Assembly (NCBI GenBank): GCA_013697915.1
Contig: JACCVY010000073.1
Span: 1-45,586, forward strand
DNA length: 45,586 nt
Reading direction: 5' to 3'
Source of the DNA: Blastocatellia bacterium
Lineage (GTDB): Bacteria > Acidobacteriota > Blastocatellia > Pyrinomonadales > Pyrinomonadaceae
This document shows positions 9,045-35,203 of the stretch, one piece after another. Position numbers and translations under genes: made by a program. Each line of letters starts with the position of its first letter. Position 1 is the first letter of the stretch. The notes beneath the pieces were generated by a model, which ran no database searches, was not told the origin of the DNA, and saw only the letters and a list, made by a program, of their open reading frames with translations.

Positions 9045-11738
9045 GTGGGGAAAAGATTGCCAGCCAATCGTTCAACGACACAAGGTCAGGGCTCTACTCC
9101 CTCATTGCTGGACATCATCGACAGTTCCCGCGTCATCGCCGAGACGGCATGCGATGCGATCATAACCATCAGCGAAGACAGCACGATCCTTTTTGTTAAC
9201 CGCGCGACGTCAAACATTTTCGGTTACACCGCCGAAGAATTAATCGGATCCGAGTTGACGATGCTGATGCCGGAATATCTCAGGCATCTTCATCGCGCCG
9301 GTCTGGCTAATTACCTGGCCACTGGAAAAAACCACATATCGTGGGAGGCGGTAGAACTTCCGGGTTTGCACAAAACTGGCAGACAACTCGCACTGGAGCT
9401 TTCGTTCGGCGAATTTCAAAAAGATGGTCACCGTTTTTTTACCGGCATCGCACGCGACATAACGCGAAGGAAACAAGACGAGCAACGTCTGAATGTCCAG
9501 CATTCAATTACAGAAATTTTGGCGTCGGCTTCGTCGCTGGATGAGGCCGCACCCAAAGTATTGATGGCCGTCGCCACGCATTTAGGCTGGCACTTCGCTG
9601 CGTTTTGGTCGGTTCAATCTCAATCAAACGAACTGCATTCCATCGCCAAATGGCGCGACGAATCGTGCGATGGCACCGCCGAATTTGCTGAAGTGAGCAG
9701 CCATTCTCGTGTCGGGGGTGATCAAAGTTTTCCAACCCGGATATGGGAAAGCAAAAAACCACTGTGGGCCGCCGACTTCGGCAGTGATGAAAGTTTTCCG
9801 CGCGCTGCCGTTGCCGCGCGCGGAAATCTGAACAGCGCCTTTGGTTTTCCTGTCATCGCAGCCGCTGCCGTGGTCGGCGTTATCGAACTCTTCAGCGAGA
9901 AGAATGAAGAACCGGATTTGGCCACGCTTGCGACGCTCGTTTCAATCGGCAGCCAGGTCGGCCAGTTCATCGAACGCGTCAATGCGGAGACTGAACGTCG
10001 CGAGGTATTGACGCGCGCCCAGGAAGCTCGCCGCGAAGCAGAAGCACTTACCGAGCAGTTGGCCGCGCTGCAAAAGGTGACGGATGCAGCGCTGGGCCAC
10101 CTTACTCTCGATGCACTGCTGGCGGAGTCGCTCAAGCGGATTCGCGAAGTTTTGCACGTCGATACTGTCGCCATTTTGCTGCTCGAACTAGAAGAAAACG
10201 AGTTAGTCGCCTGGGCTGCCCAGGGATTGGAAGAAGAAGTCGAGTTGGGTGTTCGTATTCCGGCGGGGCGGGGTTTTGCCGGCAGGATAGTTGCCAGTGC
10301 AAAGCCGATAATTATTTCAGAAGTCGAAAATGCCGATCTCTTCAATCCGCTACTGCGCGAGAAGGGTATCAAGTCGTTGCTGGGGGTCCCCATGATGATT
10401 CAGGGCCGGCCCATTGGCGTAATGCATGTTGGCGCCTTCAAACATACTCGCTTTAAAGAAGAACAAGTTCGCTTACTGCAAGCGGCGGCGGACCGAATAG
10501 CGTTGGCCGTCGAGAATGCCCGGCTGTATCAGGTTGAACAAATCGCGCGCGCTGAGGCTGAAACTGCAAACCGCGCCAAAGACGAGTTTCTGACGATCTT
10601 GTCGCATGAGCTGCGCACACCGCTAACACCAATTATCGGTTGGGTGCACATGATGGAAAACGGAATTCTTGCCGATGGTGATTCCAAGAGAGCGCTAGGG
10701 ATCATTAACAAGAATGCCGCAAATCTCAAACGGTTGATCAACGATCTGCTTGATATGTCGGCGGTCCTGAGCGGGAAAATGCGGATAGAACAAACATCCG
10801 TAACGCTCGCTCCCGTGCTCGACGAATCCATCGAGACGATGCGGTCGTTTGCTCGCGAGGCAAAAGTGGAATTGAAACTGGAGCTTTCCGATGGAGTGCG
10901 CTCGGTCACCGTAACTGGCGACCGCGGCCGTCTAAGTCAATCTTTTTGTAACGTGATTCATAATGCTATCAAGTTTTCACCTGCACGTGGGGAGGTAACT
11001 GTTACTGCCGACGCCACGCCGTCTGAAGCCATTGTAACGATCCAGGATCAGGGCGAAGGAATTCCGACCGACTTTCTGCCACATGTCTTTGAACGCTTTC
11101 GCCAGGCCGATGGTTCGCGCACCCGGTCGTATGGCGGTCTCGGTTTAGGGCTCTCCCTGGTTAAGAGTTTTGTGACTGTCCACGGAGGAACCATCGAAGC
11201 AACCAGCGACGGCATGGGTAAGGGCAGCACTTTCATCATTACGTTGCCGCGTGAGGGCATGGCGAGGCAAGTCTCAGAAAAAATATCAAAGCCTTTGAAA
11301 AGCAAAGCGGGTGACATGGTGCGCATTTTGATTGTTGAAGATGAGCCCGACACTCTGGAAATGCTGGACGCAAGTTTTCGCAGTCGCGGATTTGAAACCA
11401 TTGCGTGCGGCTCGGCAAGCGAGGCCCTCGCCTGCATCGGTCGCCAACAATTTGACATATTAATTTCCGATATTGCCATGCCCGAAATGGATGGACTCCA
11501 ATTGATGCGCGATTTGCGCGCCCGGCCAGAGTTGGCGACGGTTCCGGCGATAGCCCTGACGGGTTATGCTTCGCAAACAGACGCTAAAGCCGCCATTTCG
11601 GCAGGCTTTGATTTGCATTTATCAAAACCAATCGATCCGTCCGACCTGGTGGCCGCCGTGAACAACCTGATGGCGTTGCGACGCCGGCGAAAGGGTCTGA
11701 CGCAGTTTGAGGCTAGCAGTTCAGAGTCCAGCCTTTAG
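9045..11738 (+). CDS. Hybrid sensor histidine kinase, PAS-GAF-GAF-HisKA-HATPase-REC
   Basis: 897 residues from GTG 9045. Domains in order: PAS about 25-140 (ACDAIITISED, FGYTAEELIG, ITRRKQDEQ), GAF about 155-320, GAF about 345-500 (GFAGRIVASAKPIIISEV, SLLGVPMMIQGRPIGVM), HisKA with phospho-acceptor H521 (ILSHELRTPL), HATPase with N box (IHNAIKFSP) and G box (GLGLGLSLVKSF), and a C-terminal receiver from about 758 with D809 (ISDIAMPEMDG) and the TGYA and SKP landmarks. There is no membrane segment, so it senses cytosolic signals. The receiver gene at 11894 is a likely partner. The final codons and stop lie inside a palindromic repeat, so the last eight residues (ASSSESSL) are repeat-encoded. 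Confidence 0.9.
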   Translation: MGKRLPANRSTTQGQGSTPSLLDIIDSSRVIAETACDAIITISEDSTILFVNRATSNIFGYTAEELIGSELTMLMPEYLRHLHRAGLANYLATGKNHISWEAVELPGLHKTGRQLALELSFGEFQKDGHRFFTGIARDITRRKQDEQRLNVQHSITEILASASSLDEAAPKVLMAVATHLGWHFAAFWSVQSQSNELHSIAKWRDESCDGTAEFAEVSSHSRVGGDQSFPTRIWESKKPLWAADFGSDESFPRAAVAARGNLNSAFGFPVIAAAAVVGVIELFSEKNEEPDLATLATLVSIGSQVGQFIERVNAETERREVLTRAQEARREAEALTEQLAALQKVTDAALGHLTLDALLAESLKRIREVLHVDTVAILLLELEENELVAWAAQGLEEEVELGVRIPAGRGFAGRIVASAKPIIISEVENADLFNPLLREKGIKSLLGVPMMIQGRPIGVMHVGAFKHTRFKEEQVRLLQAAADRIALAVENARLYQVEQIARAEAETANRAKDEFLTILSHELRTPLTPIIGWVHMMENGILADGDSKRALGIINKNAANLKRLINDLLDMSAVLSGKMRIEQTSVTLAPVLDESIETMRSFAREAKVELKLELSDGVRSVTVTGDRGRLSQSFCNVIHNAIKFSPARGEVTVTADATPSEAIVTIQDQGEGIPTDFLPHVFERFRQADGSRTRSYGGLGLGLSLVKSFVTVHGGTIEATSDGMGKGSTFIITLPREGMARQVSEKISKPLKSKAGDMVRILIVEDEPDTLEMLDASFRSRGFETIACGSASEALACIGRQQFDILISDIAMPEMDGLQLMRDLRARPELATVPAIALTGYASQTDAKAAISAGFDLHLSKPIDPSDLVAAVNNLMALRRRRKGLTQFEASSSESSL

Positions 11739-29011: not shown

Positions 29012-29055
29012 CCGAATCTGTGTAATCTGCGGATAGTTCTTCTAAGGTGGAAACA

Positions 29056-29421
29056 ATGAAACACTCTGAAGGTTTTTTGAATGTCGTAAACGACGCCAAG
29101 AGTCGCATCCGCGAAGTCACGGTTGACGAAACAAAGCAACGCATGAAGGCTAACCCTGATGCAAAGCTAATCGATGTTCGCGAGGACAACGAATGGCAAG
29201 TTGGTCACGCCGCGGGTGCGCACCACCTCGGCAAAGGCATCATCGAACGCGACATCGAGGCCACGGTTCCTGACAAAGCAACCGAGCTGATTCTCTATTG
29301 CGGCGGCGGCTTTCGTTCAGCGCTTGCCGCCGACGTGCTGCAAACCATGGGCTACACAAATGTCTTCTCCATGGCCGGCGGTTGGAAAGCGTGGAAAGAC
29401 TCCGGCGGTGACGTTGCCTAG
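29056..29421 (+). CDS. Rhodanese-like sulfurtransferase
   Basis: 121 residues from ATG 29056, with AGGTGG about 6 bases upstream; a GTG three codons earlier is less likely. A single rhodanese domain runs from about residue 22. LIDVREDNEWQVGHAAGAHH is the first landmark, and the active loop starts at C82 (YCGGGFRS). Ends with MAGGWKAWKDSGG. The loop has six residues after Cys, the sulfurtransferase size. It likely carries persulfide sulfur in the cytosol. Lipoyl synthesis and the Fe-S proteins in this window need sulfur, but a direct tie is only inference. Confidence 0.9.
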   Translation: MKHSEGFLNVVNDAKSRIREVTVDETKQRMKANPDAKLIDVREDNEWQVGHAAGAHHLGKGIIERDIEATVPDKATELILYCGGGFRSALAADVLQTMGYTNVFSMAGGWKAWKDSGGDVA

Positions 29422-29433
29422 TTGCGCTTAGCG

Positions 29434-31824
29434 TTAGACCTCGGAACTCTTGCCGTCAGTCAGGCGCCGCACAATTTGCAGCAGTTGATCCAGGTCGAGG
29501 GGTTTAGTCAGGTGTTCAGCAAAGCCTTCAGCTCGCGCGCGCTCGACGTCGGCGCCGCGTCCATAACCGGTCAAGGCCACCGCCGGCACATTCGCCATTG
29601 ACGGCAACTCACGCAGCTTTTGTAACAGTTGATAACCGTCCATCTCCGGCATTGAAATATCCGAAACGACCAGATCGAAATTCTTGCGCCGCGCAATCTC
29701 AAGCGCTTCGGCGCCGCTGCGTGCTGATTCCACAAAGGCGCCTTCAAGTTGCAGCAGTTTGCCAAGCATCTCAGTCGTTTCCGGCGAGTCGTCCACCACC
29801 AGGATAAATTTATTACTTAGCGCCCCGGTCCCGCCCGTCCTTTCCGACGTAAGCCCGGACACTCCCGGCTTATACAACGGAATCCAAACGGAGAAACGCG
29901 CGCCGCTGCCGACGCCATTTGATTCGGCGCTGACGCGACCGCCGTGCAGCTCAGCAAGTTGTTTGACCAGGGCGAGGCCAATGCCCATGCCGCCCTGGCG
30001 GCGCGCGCTGCTGGCATCGGCCTGCCGAAAAATTTCGAACACGTGCGGCAGGAACTCGGCCGATATTCCCTGGCCATTATCTTCTACTACTAATTTCGCA
30101 TCATCGCCGTCTCTGACGAGGGCAATCTTCACCTCGCCGTCGACGGGCGTAAACTTTACCGCGTTGTTCAGTAGGTTCCAGGCGACCTGGCCCAGGCGAA
30201 CCGGATCGCCTTCGATGACAAGAATCTCGGGATCGAGCTCGATGTTTAATGCGATTCGCTTGACGGTCGCTTCGGCCCTCACTGTTTCAATTGCGTCAGT
30301 GATAATGGTCGATAACGACACCGGTTGCTGATTGAGGGCAACCTTGCCCATCTGCAATCGTGAAAGATCCAGGAGGTCGGAAACGAGTTGCGCCTGGGCC
30401 AGCGCATTGCGCCGGATTGTATCGGCGGCTTTTACTACAAACGCGTGTGACTGGCTTCCGTCGCTGCGACGCAGGATTTCCGCGTAGCCGATCACAACGT
30501 TCAAGGGATTGCGCAACTCATGCGATAGCGTCGCCAGGAATTCGTCCTTCAAGCGATTGGCGTCTTCAGCTTCAGCCCGGGCCTGTTGCTCACGCGCCAG
30601 TAGTTTTTCTCGCTCCTCTTCCGTACGTCGACGACTGGTGTTGTCGACGGAGACGCCGACCATCCCGATGAGTTCACCCTTCTCATCGAAGATTGGGGAG
30701 TCAGTAACCATGACTGGAAACTCAGTGCCATCGCGGTGCTTAACCAGAAACTCTCCTGACCAGCTTTTTCCTTCTTTTAAAGTGGAGAAAATCTCCGCCG
30801 CTTGCTCCCGTACTGCCGCAGCAGGCGTCATCTCCATTACATTTGCAGCGAGGGCCTCCGACGCCGGCCAGCCATAAAGCCTCTCGGCAAATGAGTTCCA
30901 ATAAATGATTTTGCCTTCGAGATCGGTGGCGATAACCGCCTGTTCCACCGCATCCAGCAAGTGCGCCTGAAAACTTATTTCTTCTTCGGCTTCTTTGCGC
31001 TCGGTGATATCGCGCAAATAAACCGATATGGCGTCTTCTGAAGGGTAGACGTGCGCTTCAAACCACCTGCCTTGAACAATCGGGGATTGCAGCTCAAAGT
31101 GCTGTGGCGCTAGATCTTTCGCAGCCTGTTGAAAACGAGGGTAAAGATCGGAATCGACGGCGCGGGGAAATACTTCCCAGATTACTTTGCCGAGCAACTC
31201 TTCACGAGTCTTGCCAAAACGCTCCAAAGTTTGCCGATTGATATCGGTGAAACGCCATTCGGTATCCAGCGAATAAAACAAATCGGTAATGCTCTCAAGG
31301 ATAGTTACAATTTTTTGTTTCGACTCGCGCAAGGCCTCAAAGGTTTCATCGCGCTCGCGCGTAGCCTCCGCCAGTTCCATTTCATAAAGGCGGGCATTGC
31401 GCAGCGCGATTGCCGCCTGATCCGCGAGCGCCGACAACTGCCACTGCTCTTCACTATCCAAAGGTTCGGGGCGCGCTATTACCAGCAGCCCGTCCAGTGA
31501 TTGCTTGGCGATGACGGGCACTGAAACCAGTACTTCTTCGTTACTAAGCGGAAGCGCTTCGCGTAGTTGTCTGACGACGTCCTCTTCCATTCGACCGCTG
31601 AAGGCTTTGGCGACAACGGGATCGATGCCGTAAGCCGCGCGGATGCGCAATTGCCCCTGCTGATCGACGAGTAGAAGTACGCTTACCTTTGCCTCAACCA
31701 ACTGGGCAGCGTTTCGGACAATCAGGTCCAATACTTCATCGAAGTTTAGTGAGGTAGTGATGGCGCGGTTGATTTCCGCCAACCGGCGAGACGGATCCTT
31801 TTTTACAAACCCTGGCTCTGCCAT
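29434..31824 (-). CDS. Hybrid sensor histidine kinase, GAF-PAS-PAS-HisKA-HATPase-REC
   Basis: 796 residues. Domains: GAF about 12-150, PAS about 165-285 (SITDLFYSLDTEWRFTDINR, YLRDITERKEAEEE), PAS about 285-405 (AVIATDLEGKIIYWNSFAER, SVDNTSRRRTEEE), HisKA with H435 (TLSHELRNPLNVVIGY), HATPase (LLNNAVKFTP, GMGIGLALVKQL) and a complete C-terminal receiver with D722 (VSDISMPEMDG). There is no membrane segment. It starts 11 bases after the KaiC-like gene, the third gene of the operon pseudo-receiver, KaiC, kinase. The architecture fits a clock-like or stress relay where KaiC or the receiver tunes the kinase; that is inference. Confidence 0.9.
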   Translation of the reverse strand: MAEPGFVKKDPSRRLAEINRAITTSLNFDEVLDLIVRNAAQLVEAKVSVLLLVDQQGQLRIRAAYGIDPVVAKAFSGRMEEDVVRQLREALPLSNEEVLVSVPVIAKQSLDGLLVIARPEPLDSEEQWQLSALADQAAIALRNARLYEMELAEATRERDETFEALRESKQKIVTILESITDLFYSLDTEWRFTDINRQTLERFGKTREELLGKVIWEVFPRAVDSDLYPRFQQAAKDLAPQHFELQSPIVQGRWFEAHVYPSEDAISVYLRDITERKEAEEEISFQAHLLDAVEQAVIATDLEGKIIYWNSFAERLYGWPASEALAANVMEMTPAAAVREQAAEIFSTLKEGKSWSGEFLVKHRDGTEFPVMVTDSPIFDEKGELIGMVGVSVDNTSRRRTEEEREKLLAREQQARAEAEDANRLKDEFLATLSHELRNPLNVVIGYAEILRRSDGSQSHAFVVKAADTIRRNALAQAQLVSDLLDLSRLQMGKVALNQQPVSLSTIITDAIETVRAEATVKRIALNIELDPEILVIEGDPVRLGQVAWNLLNNAVKFTPVDGEVKIALVRDGDDAKLVVEDNGQGISAEFLPHVFEIFRQADASSARRQGGMGIGLALVKQLAELHGGRVSAESNGVGSGARFSVWIPLYKPGVSGLTSERTGGTGALSNKFILVVDDSPETTEMLGKLLQLEGAFVESARSGAEALEIARRKNFDLVVSDISMPEMDGYQLLQKLRELPSMANVPAVALTGYGRGADVERARAEGFAEHLTKPLDLDQLLQIVRRLTDGKSSEV

Positions 31825-31835
31825 AACAAATAGTT

Positions 31836-33215
31836 CTATACCTTCTTTACAATCACGCCCTTGTTTGTAATTTGCAGGTCGTGTTCACGATTGTCATGGG
31901 CACTGCCACGGGTTTTAATGATTCGCAACGTGCGCTGCATCTCAGGTCCCGCTTTAAAACGCAACAGGATTACGTTGTCCGCCATGTTCGAGACCTCCTG
32001 ATCGCTAATACCATGCACCTCAAACAGGTTTGTCAGTTCATACATCATCAGGCAGGTCACGTTTTCCGCGGCAAACCACTGCGTCAGCGCGTAGATAAAA
32101 TCTGCGAAGCGCTGCCGATCCATGCTGCTGCGTTCCAAATCACCAAGGGCATCGATAACCACTCGCTTAATCTTCCCTTCGCGGACGCGCCGGAATATTT
32201 CACTGGTGATGGTGTCGAGCTGCAATTCGACCGGAGACCTGTATAGAAGATCGAAACCACCTCCGGGCAAAAGTTTGTCAGGCTCCCAACCAAAATTCTT
32301 CATGGTGCGCGACAGTTGCATAGGATTTTCCTGAAATCCCACATACAAACCCTGCTCTCCTTTTAGCGCGCCCTCAGTGATGAAATGCAAGCCAATGATC
32401 GTTTTGCCCGAACCCGTGGGGCCCGCCACCAGCGTAGTGCTTCCCCGCCAAAAACCCTCCGCGATCATGCCGTCCAAATTTGAGATGCCGGTAGCGACTC
32501 GTTCCAGCCGCTGCGAATAGGTTGGGCTAGTCTTTGGCGTCAGAAGCCGCGGATAAACTTCAACGCCGTCGCCATTAATTGAAAATGCATGCATGCCCGG
32601 TATCGAAGATGAGCCGCGCAACTTTTCCACTCTTAAAAAGCGCTGCTCTCTAACGTTAGTTGAATACTTCAACAATTGCAGCACCACGTCGGCAATCGCA
32701 AACTCCGGCAACTCTGTCATTGTCTCCTGGGCATATTCACCCACCAGAAAACTGGTGCATTGATACGACGACAGGACACTCGCCAGATCGTAGATAACGG
32801 TGCGACGCTCCTGGGGCGTGACCAATAGTTCGGTGAGCGCCTTGAATGAATCGATGAAAACAAAACGCGGCCGGCGCTCCATGAGCAGATTTGTAACCAG
32901 GTCGGGTAATTGATCGACGCCTGACTGCCTCAACATCAAGCCGAGGTCCTCGTAAAGCACCGAGACGCCCACCTTGGCGGTATCGAAGAACCGATGCGTC
33001 TGACCATGTACGATAAATTTATCGAGCGGCTCTGAAAGTGTAGTGAGATACAGCGCCGGAGCTTCAGCCGTAGCATTAGCAAATGCCAATTGTTCGGCTA
33101 GAAGCGTCTTGCCGGTACCCGGCGCTCCCATGATTACGCTGATCGTATTCACCGGTATTCCGCCGCCGAGCACTTCATCGAGTCCGGCGCAACCGGTCAG
33201 TATCCTGTCCGCCAT
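31836..33215 (-). CDS. KaiC-like double-domain RecA/DnaB-type ATPase
   Basis: 459 residues from ATG 33215, whose A is the last base of the upstream stop (TGATG), giving tight translational coupling; GAAGGAAC serves as ribosome site. Two KaiC domains: Walker A GAPGTGKT (30-37) and GPTGSGKT (265-272). The paired catalytic glutamates of cyanobacterial KaiC are not kept: CI reads LTTLSEP (L60, S61) and CII reads GFQENP (Q295, E296). In the CII phosphosite region HGISDQEVSNMADNVILL, the Ser431 equivalent is S409 but Thr432 is Asn410; Thr426 is S404. It sits between a degenerate receiver and a hybrid kinase, so probably an ATP-dependent signalling module. There is no kaiA or kaiB in the window. Confidence 0.92.
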   Translation of the reverse strand: MADRILTGCAGLDEVLGGGIPVNTISVIMGAPGTGKTLLAEQLAFANATAEAPALYLTTLSEPLDKFIVHGQTHRFFDTAKVGVSVLYEDLGLMLRQSGVDQLPDLVTNLLMERRPRFVFIDSFKALTELLVTPQERRTVIYDLASVLSSYQCTSFLVGEYAQETMTELPEFAIADVVLQLLKYSTNVREQRFLRVEKLRGSSSIPGMHAFSINGDGVEVYPRLLTPKTSPTYSQRLERVATGISNLDGMIAEGFWRGSTTLVAGPTGSGKTIIGLHFITEGALKGEQGLYVGFQENPMQLSRTMKNFGWEPDKLLPGGGFDLLYRSPVELQLDTITSEIFRRVREGKIKRVVIDALGDLERSSMDRQRFADFIYALTQWFAAENVTCLMMYELTNLFEVHGISDQEVSNMADNVILLRFKAGPEMQRTLRIIKTRGSAHDNREHDLQITNKGVIVKKV

Positions 33216-33646
33216 CAAGTTCCTTCTCCCGCCGATTGCTTTTGCAAAACCAGTAGTTTTTCTAAAGTAGTAATCAACAACTCTTCATCGAGGGGCTTTG
33301 AGAGGAAGGCGTCGGCGCCGGCCTCGCGGGCGCGATCCTCTGCTTGCAGATGACTGAAAATCATCACCAGAATGTCCTTCGTTTCCGCGCCCGACTTTAG
33401 CGTGCGGCAAAGACTGAGGCCGTCCAGCTTTGGCACCAGGATTTCTGTCACCACAATTCTGGGCTTCAGCTCCTGCGCGCGCGCCAGAGCCGCAAGACCA
33501 TCCTCAGTGAACTCGACGCCAAAGCCGGCTTGTTCGAGAAAAAAACGCTCAAGTCGTTGCACAATTGGATTGCGCTCAACAACCAGTATTAGAGCCCGTT
33601 GTTCGGGCTTATTGGGGGCAGGGGAATTTGGGACGGGAGACAACAT
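33215..33646 (-). CDS. Degenerate receiver-domain protein (pseudo-receiver)
   Basis: 143 residues from ATG 33646; a TTG seven codons upstream is possible. The fold is a receiver domain: ALILVVERNPIVQRLERFF, IVVTEILVPKLDGLSLC, VMIFSHL, GADAFLSKPLDEEL. The acidic pair is E24/R25 instead of Asp-Asp, and the phospho-acceptor is Glu68 instead of Asp. Ser98 and Lys117 are kept. A Glu at this place often mimics the phosphorylated state, so the protein is probably locked and acts by binding. It ends inside the KaiC start codon (shared base), so the products are made together. Confidence 0.85.
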   Translation of the reverse strand: MLSPVPNSPAPNKPEQRALILVVERNPIVQRLERFFLEQAGFGVEFTEDGLAALARAQELKPRIVVTEILVPKLDGLSLCRTLKSGAETKDILVMIFSHLQAEDRAREAGADAFLSKPLDEELLITTLEKLLVLQKQSAGEGT

Positions 33647-33726: not shown

Positions 33727-33757
33727 TTGCTGTCAGATTACACCCACGGTGTACAAT
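33727..33757 (+). promoter_or_regulatory. Possible fumC promoter
   Basis: TTGCTG (33727-33732), a long 19-base spacer and TACAAT (33752-33757). The transcript would begin near 33764, about at the left edge of the leader hairpin, so the stem might form only partly in RNA. Confidence 0.35.
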
Positions 33758-33761
33758 GTGA

Positions 33762-33786
33762 GTCTGGACAAGTCGAAAGTCCAGAC
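33762..33786. promoter_or_regulatory. Perfect inverted repeat just before fumC
   Basis: GTCTGGAC (33762-33769) and GTCCAGAC (33779-33786) form an 8-bp perfect stem with a 9-base loop, 7 bases from the fumC ATG. It occupies the place of the ribosome site. It could be an operator or an RNA control element. Confidence 0.5.
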
Positions 33787-33793
33787 ATCCCCT

Positions 33794-35203
33794 ATGCCTC
33801 AGGAACAACCAAAAAAGCAAAGCGGCACTCGCAGCGAGACCGATTCGATGGGCCAGATTGAAGTGCCCGCGGACAAGTATTGGGGCGCGCAAACCCAGCG
33901 CAGCTTGATCCATTTTGCTATCGGCGACGATCGCATGCCGCGCGAAATGATTCGCGCGCTTGGCATTCTCAAAAAAGCCGCGGCCATCGTCAATCAGGAA
34001 CTGGGAAAACTTCCGAGCGACAAGCTGAAGCTGATCGAACAAGCGGCGGATGAAGTAATTGCCGGCAAGCTTGACGATCATTTTCCATTACGCGTTTGGC
34101 AAACGGGCAGTGGTACGCAGACGAACATGAATGCAAACGAAGTGATCTCGAACCGCGCGATTGAGATCGCCGGTGGCGTTCCTGGGAGTAAAGAACCAGT
34201 CCATCCGAATGACGACGTGAATATGTCACAGTCGTCGAATGATACTTTTCCCACGGCAATGTATATCGCGGCGGCTGAGCAGTTGACCTGGTTGATTCCC
34301 GAAATCCAGAACGTCCACGACGCGATCGCTGCAAAAGCCGAGGAGTTCAAGGACGTCGTAAAAATTGGCCGCACTCACCTTCAGGACGCCACGCCAATAA
34401 CTGTAGGCCAGGAGATGTCGGGCTGGGCCAGTCTGCTTGAAAGAGATATTGAGCGCCTGAAAATGACTTTGCCGGGGGTATTGGATTTGGCGATCGGCGG
34501 CACTGCGGTCGGCACTGGGCTGAATTCGCATCCTGAATTCAGCGAGCGTGCCGCGAAGAAAATTGCGGAGCTGACCGGGCTCGCTTTCAAATCACATCCA
34601 AACAAGTTTGCAGCGCTTTCCGCGCACGACGAAATCATTTTTGCGAGCGGCGCCCTCAAAACGCTGGCTGCCTCGCTGATGAAAATTGCCAACGATATTC
34701 GTTGGCTGGCGTCCGGCCCGCGCTGTGGTTTAGGTGAATTGACGTTGCCCGAGAACGAACCCGGCTCGTCGATCATGCCGGGCAAGGTCAATCCGACTCA
34801 AAGCGAAGCGATGACGATGGTGGCGGTGCAGGTTTTCGGCAACGATACCGCCATCACCATTGCCGGCTCGCAGGGGAATTTCGAGTTGAATGTGTATAAG
34901 CCGGTGATGATTCATAATTTTCTGCATTCGATTCGTTTGCTGCACGACGCGTGTCACAGCTTTGTTGAATATTGCATCAAGGGCATTGAGTTGAATCGCG
35001 AACAGATTGACCATTACTTGAAAAACTCGCTGATGCTGGTGACCGCGCTCAATCCGCACATTGGCTATGACAAGGCGGCGCAGGTGGCAAAGAACGCGCA
35101 TAAGAAAAAGATCAGTTTGCGCGAGTCGGCAGTTGAGCTGGGATATTTGAGCGGCGAGGAGTTTGACAAGTACGTCAAGCCGGAAGAGATGACACACCCA
35201 TGA
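33794..35203 (+). CDS. fumC: Class II fumarate hydratase
   Basis: 469 residues from ATG 33794; the frame opens further upstream (33749), but that part overlaps a probable promoter and hairpin. Oxygen-stable, iron-free fumarase of the citric acid cycle, interconverting fumarate and malate. Landmarks: [66 protein letters not shown] and the superfamily signature [11 protein letters not shown] with the catalytic Ser loop. Length fits FumC. It is divergent from the receiver-KaiC operon. Its stop is followed at once by a heptad array. No good ribosome site is visible. Confidence 0.95.

Follow-up and report, generated by a model that had tools for sequence, protein, structure and literature searches.

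The locus lies on the minus strand of the window, the 45,586-nucleotide stretch of DNA analysed here, which makes up contig C37 of the draft genome (4.5 Mb, 97% complete) of a Blastocatellia bacterium. Between positions 33646 and 29434, three co-directional open reading frames code, in this order, for a single CheY-like receiver domain (33215..33646 from its ATG, 143 aa; from 33667 with an upstream TTG, 150 aa), a two-domain KaiC-like ATPase with a Walker A motif in both halves (31836..33215 from its ATG; from 33218 with a TTG, 460 aa) and a 796-aa hybrid histidine kinase (29434..31824). Pfam profiles recover Response_reg (PF00072, 2.8e-17) in the first, two copies of PF06745 (3e-71) in the second, and GAF, PAS_4, PAS, HisKA, HATPase_c and Response_reg domains in the third. 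As the first-pass annotation had read them, the three genes are tightly packed: the receiver stop and the KaiC ATG share one base in the sequence TGATG (33217–33213 on the minus strand), and 11 bases (31825..31835) separate the KaiC stop from the kinase ATG. At both junctions, several orthologous loci show overlaps of 1 or 4 bases, indicating that this coupling is not a product of chance. The receiver ATG itself corresponds to an invariant column (M8) of the ortholog alignment. The operon is flanked by a divergent class II fumarase gene on the plus strand (33749..35203), which serves as a marker of the same locus in relatives, and its other border is a plus-strand gene for a rhodanese-domain protein (29047..29421) convergent with the kinase, both being identified by Pfam. 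Neither an HPt domain nor an output regulator adjoins the module, and a promoter scan found 4 matches as against 2.9 expected. A second PAS/GAF hybrid histidine kinase is encoded elsewhere in the window (9045–11738) and is unlinked to the KaiC.

The first protein of the operon combines the receiver fold with an active site in which residues needed for phosphotransfer are replaced. Its structure model displays a CheY fold (pLDDT 72; best Z 18.7), in which, with receiver and KaiC residues numbered from the TTG starts, E31 and R32 replace the pair of aspartates, E75 replaces the aspartate of the phosphorylation site, S105 occupies the threonine position, and the lysine is kept as K124. In addition, H106 is found at T+1, F121 at K-3 and L126 at K+2. 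All these residues are identical in five orthologs, the proteins being 60–66% identical to that of the window and the third codon positions differing by 61–69%; codon-position differences were used in place of dN/dS since silent sites look saturated, and their pattern is that of purifying selection. The persistence of an identical altered site despite such divergence at both the protein and third-position levels argues that it is under selection rather than decaying. The most invariant parts of the ortholog alignment are the β1-α1 loop, α1, the β3-α3 loop, α3 and the β4-α4 loop. Thus, the description of this receiver as degenerate holds, and with DD2 changed to R, D to E and T+1 to H, it classifies as a pseudo-receiver. 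Pseudo-receivers typically have a non-acidic DD2, a residue of larger size at T+1 is consistent with absence of phosphorylation, a leucine at K+2 favours active conformations, and glutamate at the D position, the commonest substitution in one class, can partly, but not always, mimic the phosphate (PMC12632262). From these residues, we predict that the receiver can probably no longer be phosphorylated and that its conformation is probably active-like. It consists of a single domain of 143–150 aa matching only PF00072, with no KaiA-like four-helix C-terminal domain.

The second protein belongs to the KaiC family by virtue of its two tandem P-loop domains, and residues 1–460 of its model align to residues 16–482 of KaiC in PDB structures (Z 35 to 38.5; 24–25% identity). 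It falls short of the equivalog cut-offs of NCBIfam, scoring 144 bits against the 546 needed for TIGR02655 and 219 against the 408 for PRK09302. Based on positions counted by hand on the PDB alignment, Q296 takes the place of the CII catalytic glutamate E318, which we take to be the general base of KaiC, while E297 corresponds to E319, S405 to T426, and the S431-T432 phosphorylation pair is represented by S410-N411; five orthologs all share Q296, E297, S405, S410 and N411, with the protein as a whole kept at 66–67% identity. A glutamate near the γ-phosphate is considered to serve as the general base in KaiC phosphorylation, and residues 488–497 of KaiC form its A-loop (PMC6378743). The chain of the window protein stops at the equivalent of KaiC residue 482, so that both the A-loop and the KaiA-binding tail are absent; other Acidobacteriota KaiCs (~33% identity) mostly bear a C-terminal extension. 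Given the E318→Q and T432→N changes and the loss of the A-loop, a KaiABC phosphorylation cycle is not expected, and this reading of the catalytic residues from an alignment makes a KaiABC-type phosphorylation clock unlikely. Timing via KaiC phosphorylation is likewise disfavoured by these residue changes, and the module as a whole is probably not a clock. The earlier suggestion of a timing device is thus weakened: a KaiC is indeed present, but without the autokinase base, one of the two phosphorylation sites and the A-loop.

Searches of the entire 97% complete genome confirm that the usual partners of KaiC are missing. No kaiB was found with PF07689, the same search detecting KaiB in G015, G003 and G458, and no kaiA was found with PF07688, which detected the Synechococcus elongatus positive control. 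A protein search likewise found no second KaiC in the genome, whose ATPase-family matches, apart from those to each half of this KaiC, are three weaker ones on different contigs. Hence, the absence of kaiA and kaiB, first remarked on for the window, extends to the genome at large. A relative carrying the pseudo-receiver–KaiC operon, G013, also has a KaiB-like match with one in-frame TGA (L117, C318:3854-4081), possibly a broken kaiB.

The third protein is an ordinary hybrid kinase with the domain order GAF-PAS-PAS-HisKA-HATPase-REC. Its H435 and the D678, D679, D722, T752 and K774 of its REC domain are intact and invariant across six sequences; this REC domain thus keeps all five canonical residues, unlike the pseudo-receiver of the operon. 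The KaiB-like thioredoxin-fold sensor of the SasA type is absent from its N-terminus, which instead begins with the GAF domain followed by PAS. We also considered similarity of the kinase as a marker of association with KaiC and found it unspecific, equally similar kinases being encoded at loci with no KaiC nearby (L105 and L106, the latter a short contig).

The gene order receiver–KaiC–histidine kinase, for which a search in relatives had been proposed, is kept in six genomes from two genera of one Blastocatellia family, always beside fumarase. KaiC orthologs of 65–70% identity are found in G000, G006, G008, G011 and G013 of the same genus and in G017 of another genus of the family; no KaiC of similar identity was found elsewhere in a sample of 396 genomes of the phylum. 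The five other genomes with KaiC orthologs show the same receiver and kinase neighbours and the fumarase flank in each case, with the G011 locus spread over two contigs. A whole-database scan recovered at least one named ortholog, in a Blastocatellia MAG (PSRF01000231.1), with the match positioned as in G013 (C221). These observations support the notion of a KaiC-centred module lacking kaiA and kaiB and distinct from the cyanobacterial clock. As all the intact copies represent one locus, the order could have been maintained by vertical descent alone. In presence and absence, the receiver and KaiC agree in 17 of 17 genomes, 6 carrying both and 11 neither, with the kinase ortholog present in 9 of the 17. 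This co-occurrence reflects few events within one family, and as some of the genomes are incomplete, single absences are less certain than loci that can be read through.

Such read-through loci record the loss of the receiver and KaiC from beside a surviving kinase. In G004, the closest relative at the locus (fumarase 92%, kinase 86%), both genes are gone, leaving about 155 bases between the fumarase and the kinase start on one contig. What lies between can still be aligned both with the flank next to the fumarase and with the final ~60 bases of KaiC, these now holding a stop and a frame shift and reading HDNH*HYPQIPDKAVIGK as against HDNREHDLQITNKGVIVKK. An assembly artefact was rejected for this genome, which is 98% complete in 40 contigs and has fumarase and kinase on the same contig. 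In G007 and G012, too, the kinase adjoins the fumarase with neither receiver nor KaiC. The decayed end of KaiC (31836..31906 in the window) scores in local alignment above the shuffle maxima in G004 (41 versus 26) and G007 (45 versus 27), while in G012 it is weak when taken alone (34 versus 31), the maxima for G007 and G012 being from 1000 letter shuffles. Presence of this KaiC remnant in kinase-only loci disfavours the opposite scenario, namely insertion of the receiver and KaiC beside the kinase in G000. In the kinase tree, G004 groups with G000, and G007 and G012 with G006, all with full support; since G000 and G006 carry the complete operon, the receiver and KaiC have been lost independently at least twice. 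In G014, the fumarase lies beside the rhodanese gene and the entire module is absent. It may also be observed that what is left of the KaiC 3′ end 5′ of the kinase is almost the same stretch in separate kinase-only lineages (L095, L097 and L099), and a promoter or leader of the kinase may be buried in it.

The joint loss of the receiver and KaiC with retention of the kinase suggests that the pair probably works as a single unit to adjust the kinase, and the survival of the kinase alone in three relatives points to a free-standing sensor kinase for which KaiC and the pseudo-receiver are an optional layer. The first-pass annotation had cast the kinase as the output of the module; as part of an obligate three-part device, this is too strong, given that the kinase outlives the other two genes in these relatives. 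Accommodating these points, we posit that the pseudo-receiver is a dedicated partner of KaiC and that the two together regulate, according to nucleotide state, a kinase that can also work by itself and for which they are dispensable, a proposal to which we give about an even chance. The receiver, fixed in a non-phosphorylatable and probably active-like state, would offer a permanent docking partner to the KaiC ring, which would bind and turn over ATP via its two P-loop domains without undergoing the KaiABC phosphorylation cycle. Since the protein retains its ATP sites but not the phosphorylation cycle, KaiC may report the nucleotide state, its nucleotide-dependent shape being read through, or stabilised by, the pseudo-receiver. 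KaiC and the pseudo-receiver would then shift the balance between autokinase and phosphatase activity in the kinase encoded alongside them, with its GAF and PAS sensor and its own intact receiver, such that a cytosolic signal arriving at the kinase would be gated by the energy state of the cell. The physical complex, the direction of action from KaiC and the pseudo-receiver to the kinase, the energy sensing and a downstream target are all elements that we infer.

A related proposal holds the pseudo-receiver to be a substitute for KaiB or KaiA. Such a role as a replacement partner is possible. Known partners of KaiC or KaiB with a receiver fold are the N-terminal domain of KaiA, KaiA3 and CikA (PMC12632262, PMC11372060). 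In its stricter form, with the pseudo-receiver as the obligate partner of a non-autophosphorylating KaiC and the two making up a phosphorylation-free complex that acts on an ordinary hybrid kinase, we consider it rather unlikely.

KaiC is not essential for the kinase, which is kept alone, and together with the receiver it might act elsewhere. Thus, the pair could be a unit whose target has nothing to do with the kinase, the latter being merely a co-transcribed neighbour, as both the persistence of the kinase without the pair in three relatives and the exact match in presence and absence between receiver and KaiC would allow. However, adjacency of KaiC and a histidine kinase, seen in many other, distant Acidobacteriota KaiCs, recurs in other phyla (PMC3164672), and in some orthologs the kinase is itself joined by a stop/start overlap, leading us to view this explanation as rather unlikely. 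A minimal timer is less probable still: here, slow ATP hydrolysis by KaiC would drive a state change lasting hours, in the manner of an hourglass, with the pseudo-receiver standing in for KaiB or KaiA and the kinase as the read-out. KaiA-less KaiBC systems regulated by the ATP/ADP ratio do exist (PMC10076222), KaiA includes a pseudo-receiver domain and KaiA3 one that resembles a receiver (PMC12632262, PMC11372060), and the KaiC and kinase of Ramlibacter, which lack KaiB, have been proposed as an hourglass (PMC3164672). Nevertheless, the authors of that proposal judged KaiCs unable to phosphorylate two residues to be unlikely cyclic timers (PMC3164672), and the phosphorylation cycle that times the known systems is not expected in a KaiC with invariant E318→Q and T432→N changes and no A-loop; moreover, the receiver is a single domain without the C-terminal domain of KaiA. 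Similarly improbable is direct action of the pseudo-receiver on the kinase, for example by competing with its receiver domain, in which case KaiC would do no more than load or sequester the pseudo-receiver. Binding to the kinase or its receiver has been proposed for CmrT, a pseudo-receiver in an ordinary two-component operon (PMC12632262), and the kinase's own receiver is intact here, but the pseudo-receiver was lost along with KaiC rather than with the kinase and is kept in no kinase-only genome. Finally, a decaying receiver or chance neighbours without a joint function, for which the patchy distribution of this KaiC (only 6 genomes of the family) might speak, appear very improbable in light of the invariant altered residues, the signature of purifying selection and losses that take both genes together.

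The proposed regulation of the kinase by KaiC and the pseudo-receiver has a bearing beyond this locus, as most non-cyanobacterial KaiC homologs are without a known job and the way bacterial pseudo-receivers work was called a mystery in a 2025 review (PMC12632262). The losses, at least two in number and each leaving a scar, amount to a natural experiment separating the pseudo-receiver and KaiC from the surviving kinase, and the locus offers a small, testable system both for the role of a KaiC without clock chemistry and for the action of a bacterial pseudo-receiver. A literature search on Acidobacteriota KaiC returned nothing relevant. Other arrangements are seen across the phylum. Directly 5′ of other Acidobacteriota KaiCs (33% identical) lies a small protein family of ~130–170 aa (alignment A2; L062:4759-5250, L064:10096-10581, L066:8253-8738, L067:7199-7669, L070:7569-7961 and L071:6461-6916), whose genes mostly overlap KaiC by 4 bases and are mostly followed by a kinase, making it a candidate new KaiC partner. 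Its identification as a KaiB or a receiver was rejected, with no convincing Pfam match (one sub-threshold MRP) and no PDB match. In the distant acidobacterium G255, the order is kinase–KaiC–receiver, with the receiver overlapping the end of KaiC (L076:4711-8469).

Among known systems, the S. elongatus KaiABC clock shares with the window locus the two-domain KaiC fold over its full length, but here KaiA, KaiB, the A-loop and tail and a SasA-type sensor are lacking, and E318 and T432 are replaced. KaiA3 of Synechocystis, the partner of KaiC3, is a receiver-fold protein working with a KaiC, as we propose for the pseudo-receiver; however, it has a KaiA-like C-terminal domain and mostly keeps the aspartate, in contrast to the single-domain, glutamate-bearing receiver of the window (PMC11372060). 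The Rhodobacter sphaeroides KaiBC system is likewise KaiA-free (PMC10076222) with a kinase in the kaiBC operon (PMC5520375), but it includes KaiB, and its KaiC is phosphorylated on two serines and bears a C-terminal coiled coil (PMC10076222), whereas the window KaiC ends before the A-loop. Closer in phylogeny, G015 of the same genus combines a KaiC with a GAF/PAS hybrid kinase in the order KaiC–KaiB–KaiB–kinase (L107:5785-10608, C7), differing in its two KaiB genes, its lack of a pseudo-receiver and its ~28% identical KaiC. The nearest counterparts are in the KaiC contexts earlier sorted in the Ramlibacter genome paper into kaiBC, KaiC beside a kinase but lacking kaiB, and a mixed group that includes receivers and incomplete phosphorylation sites (PMC3164672). 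The Ramlibacter type (Rta_04330/Rta_04340) has a KaiC without kaiA or kaiB and a kinase directly downstream, and the mixed group, which the window locus fits best, has a single-domain receiver beside KaiC and an incomplete phosphorylation-site pair (PMC3164672). Thus, KaiC–histidine kinase and KaiC–receiver neighbourhoods were already described in 2011, and the window locus is a variant of them, in which the receiver lies upstream and is non-canonical without exception, a GAF domain opens the kinase in place of the KaiB-like N-terminal domain described there, and all three genes form one closely coupled operon.
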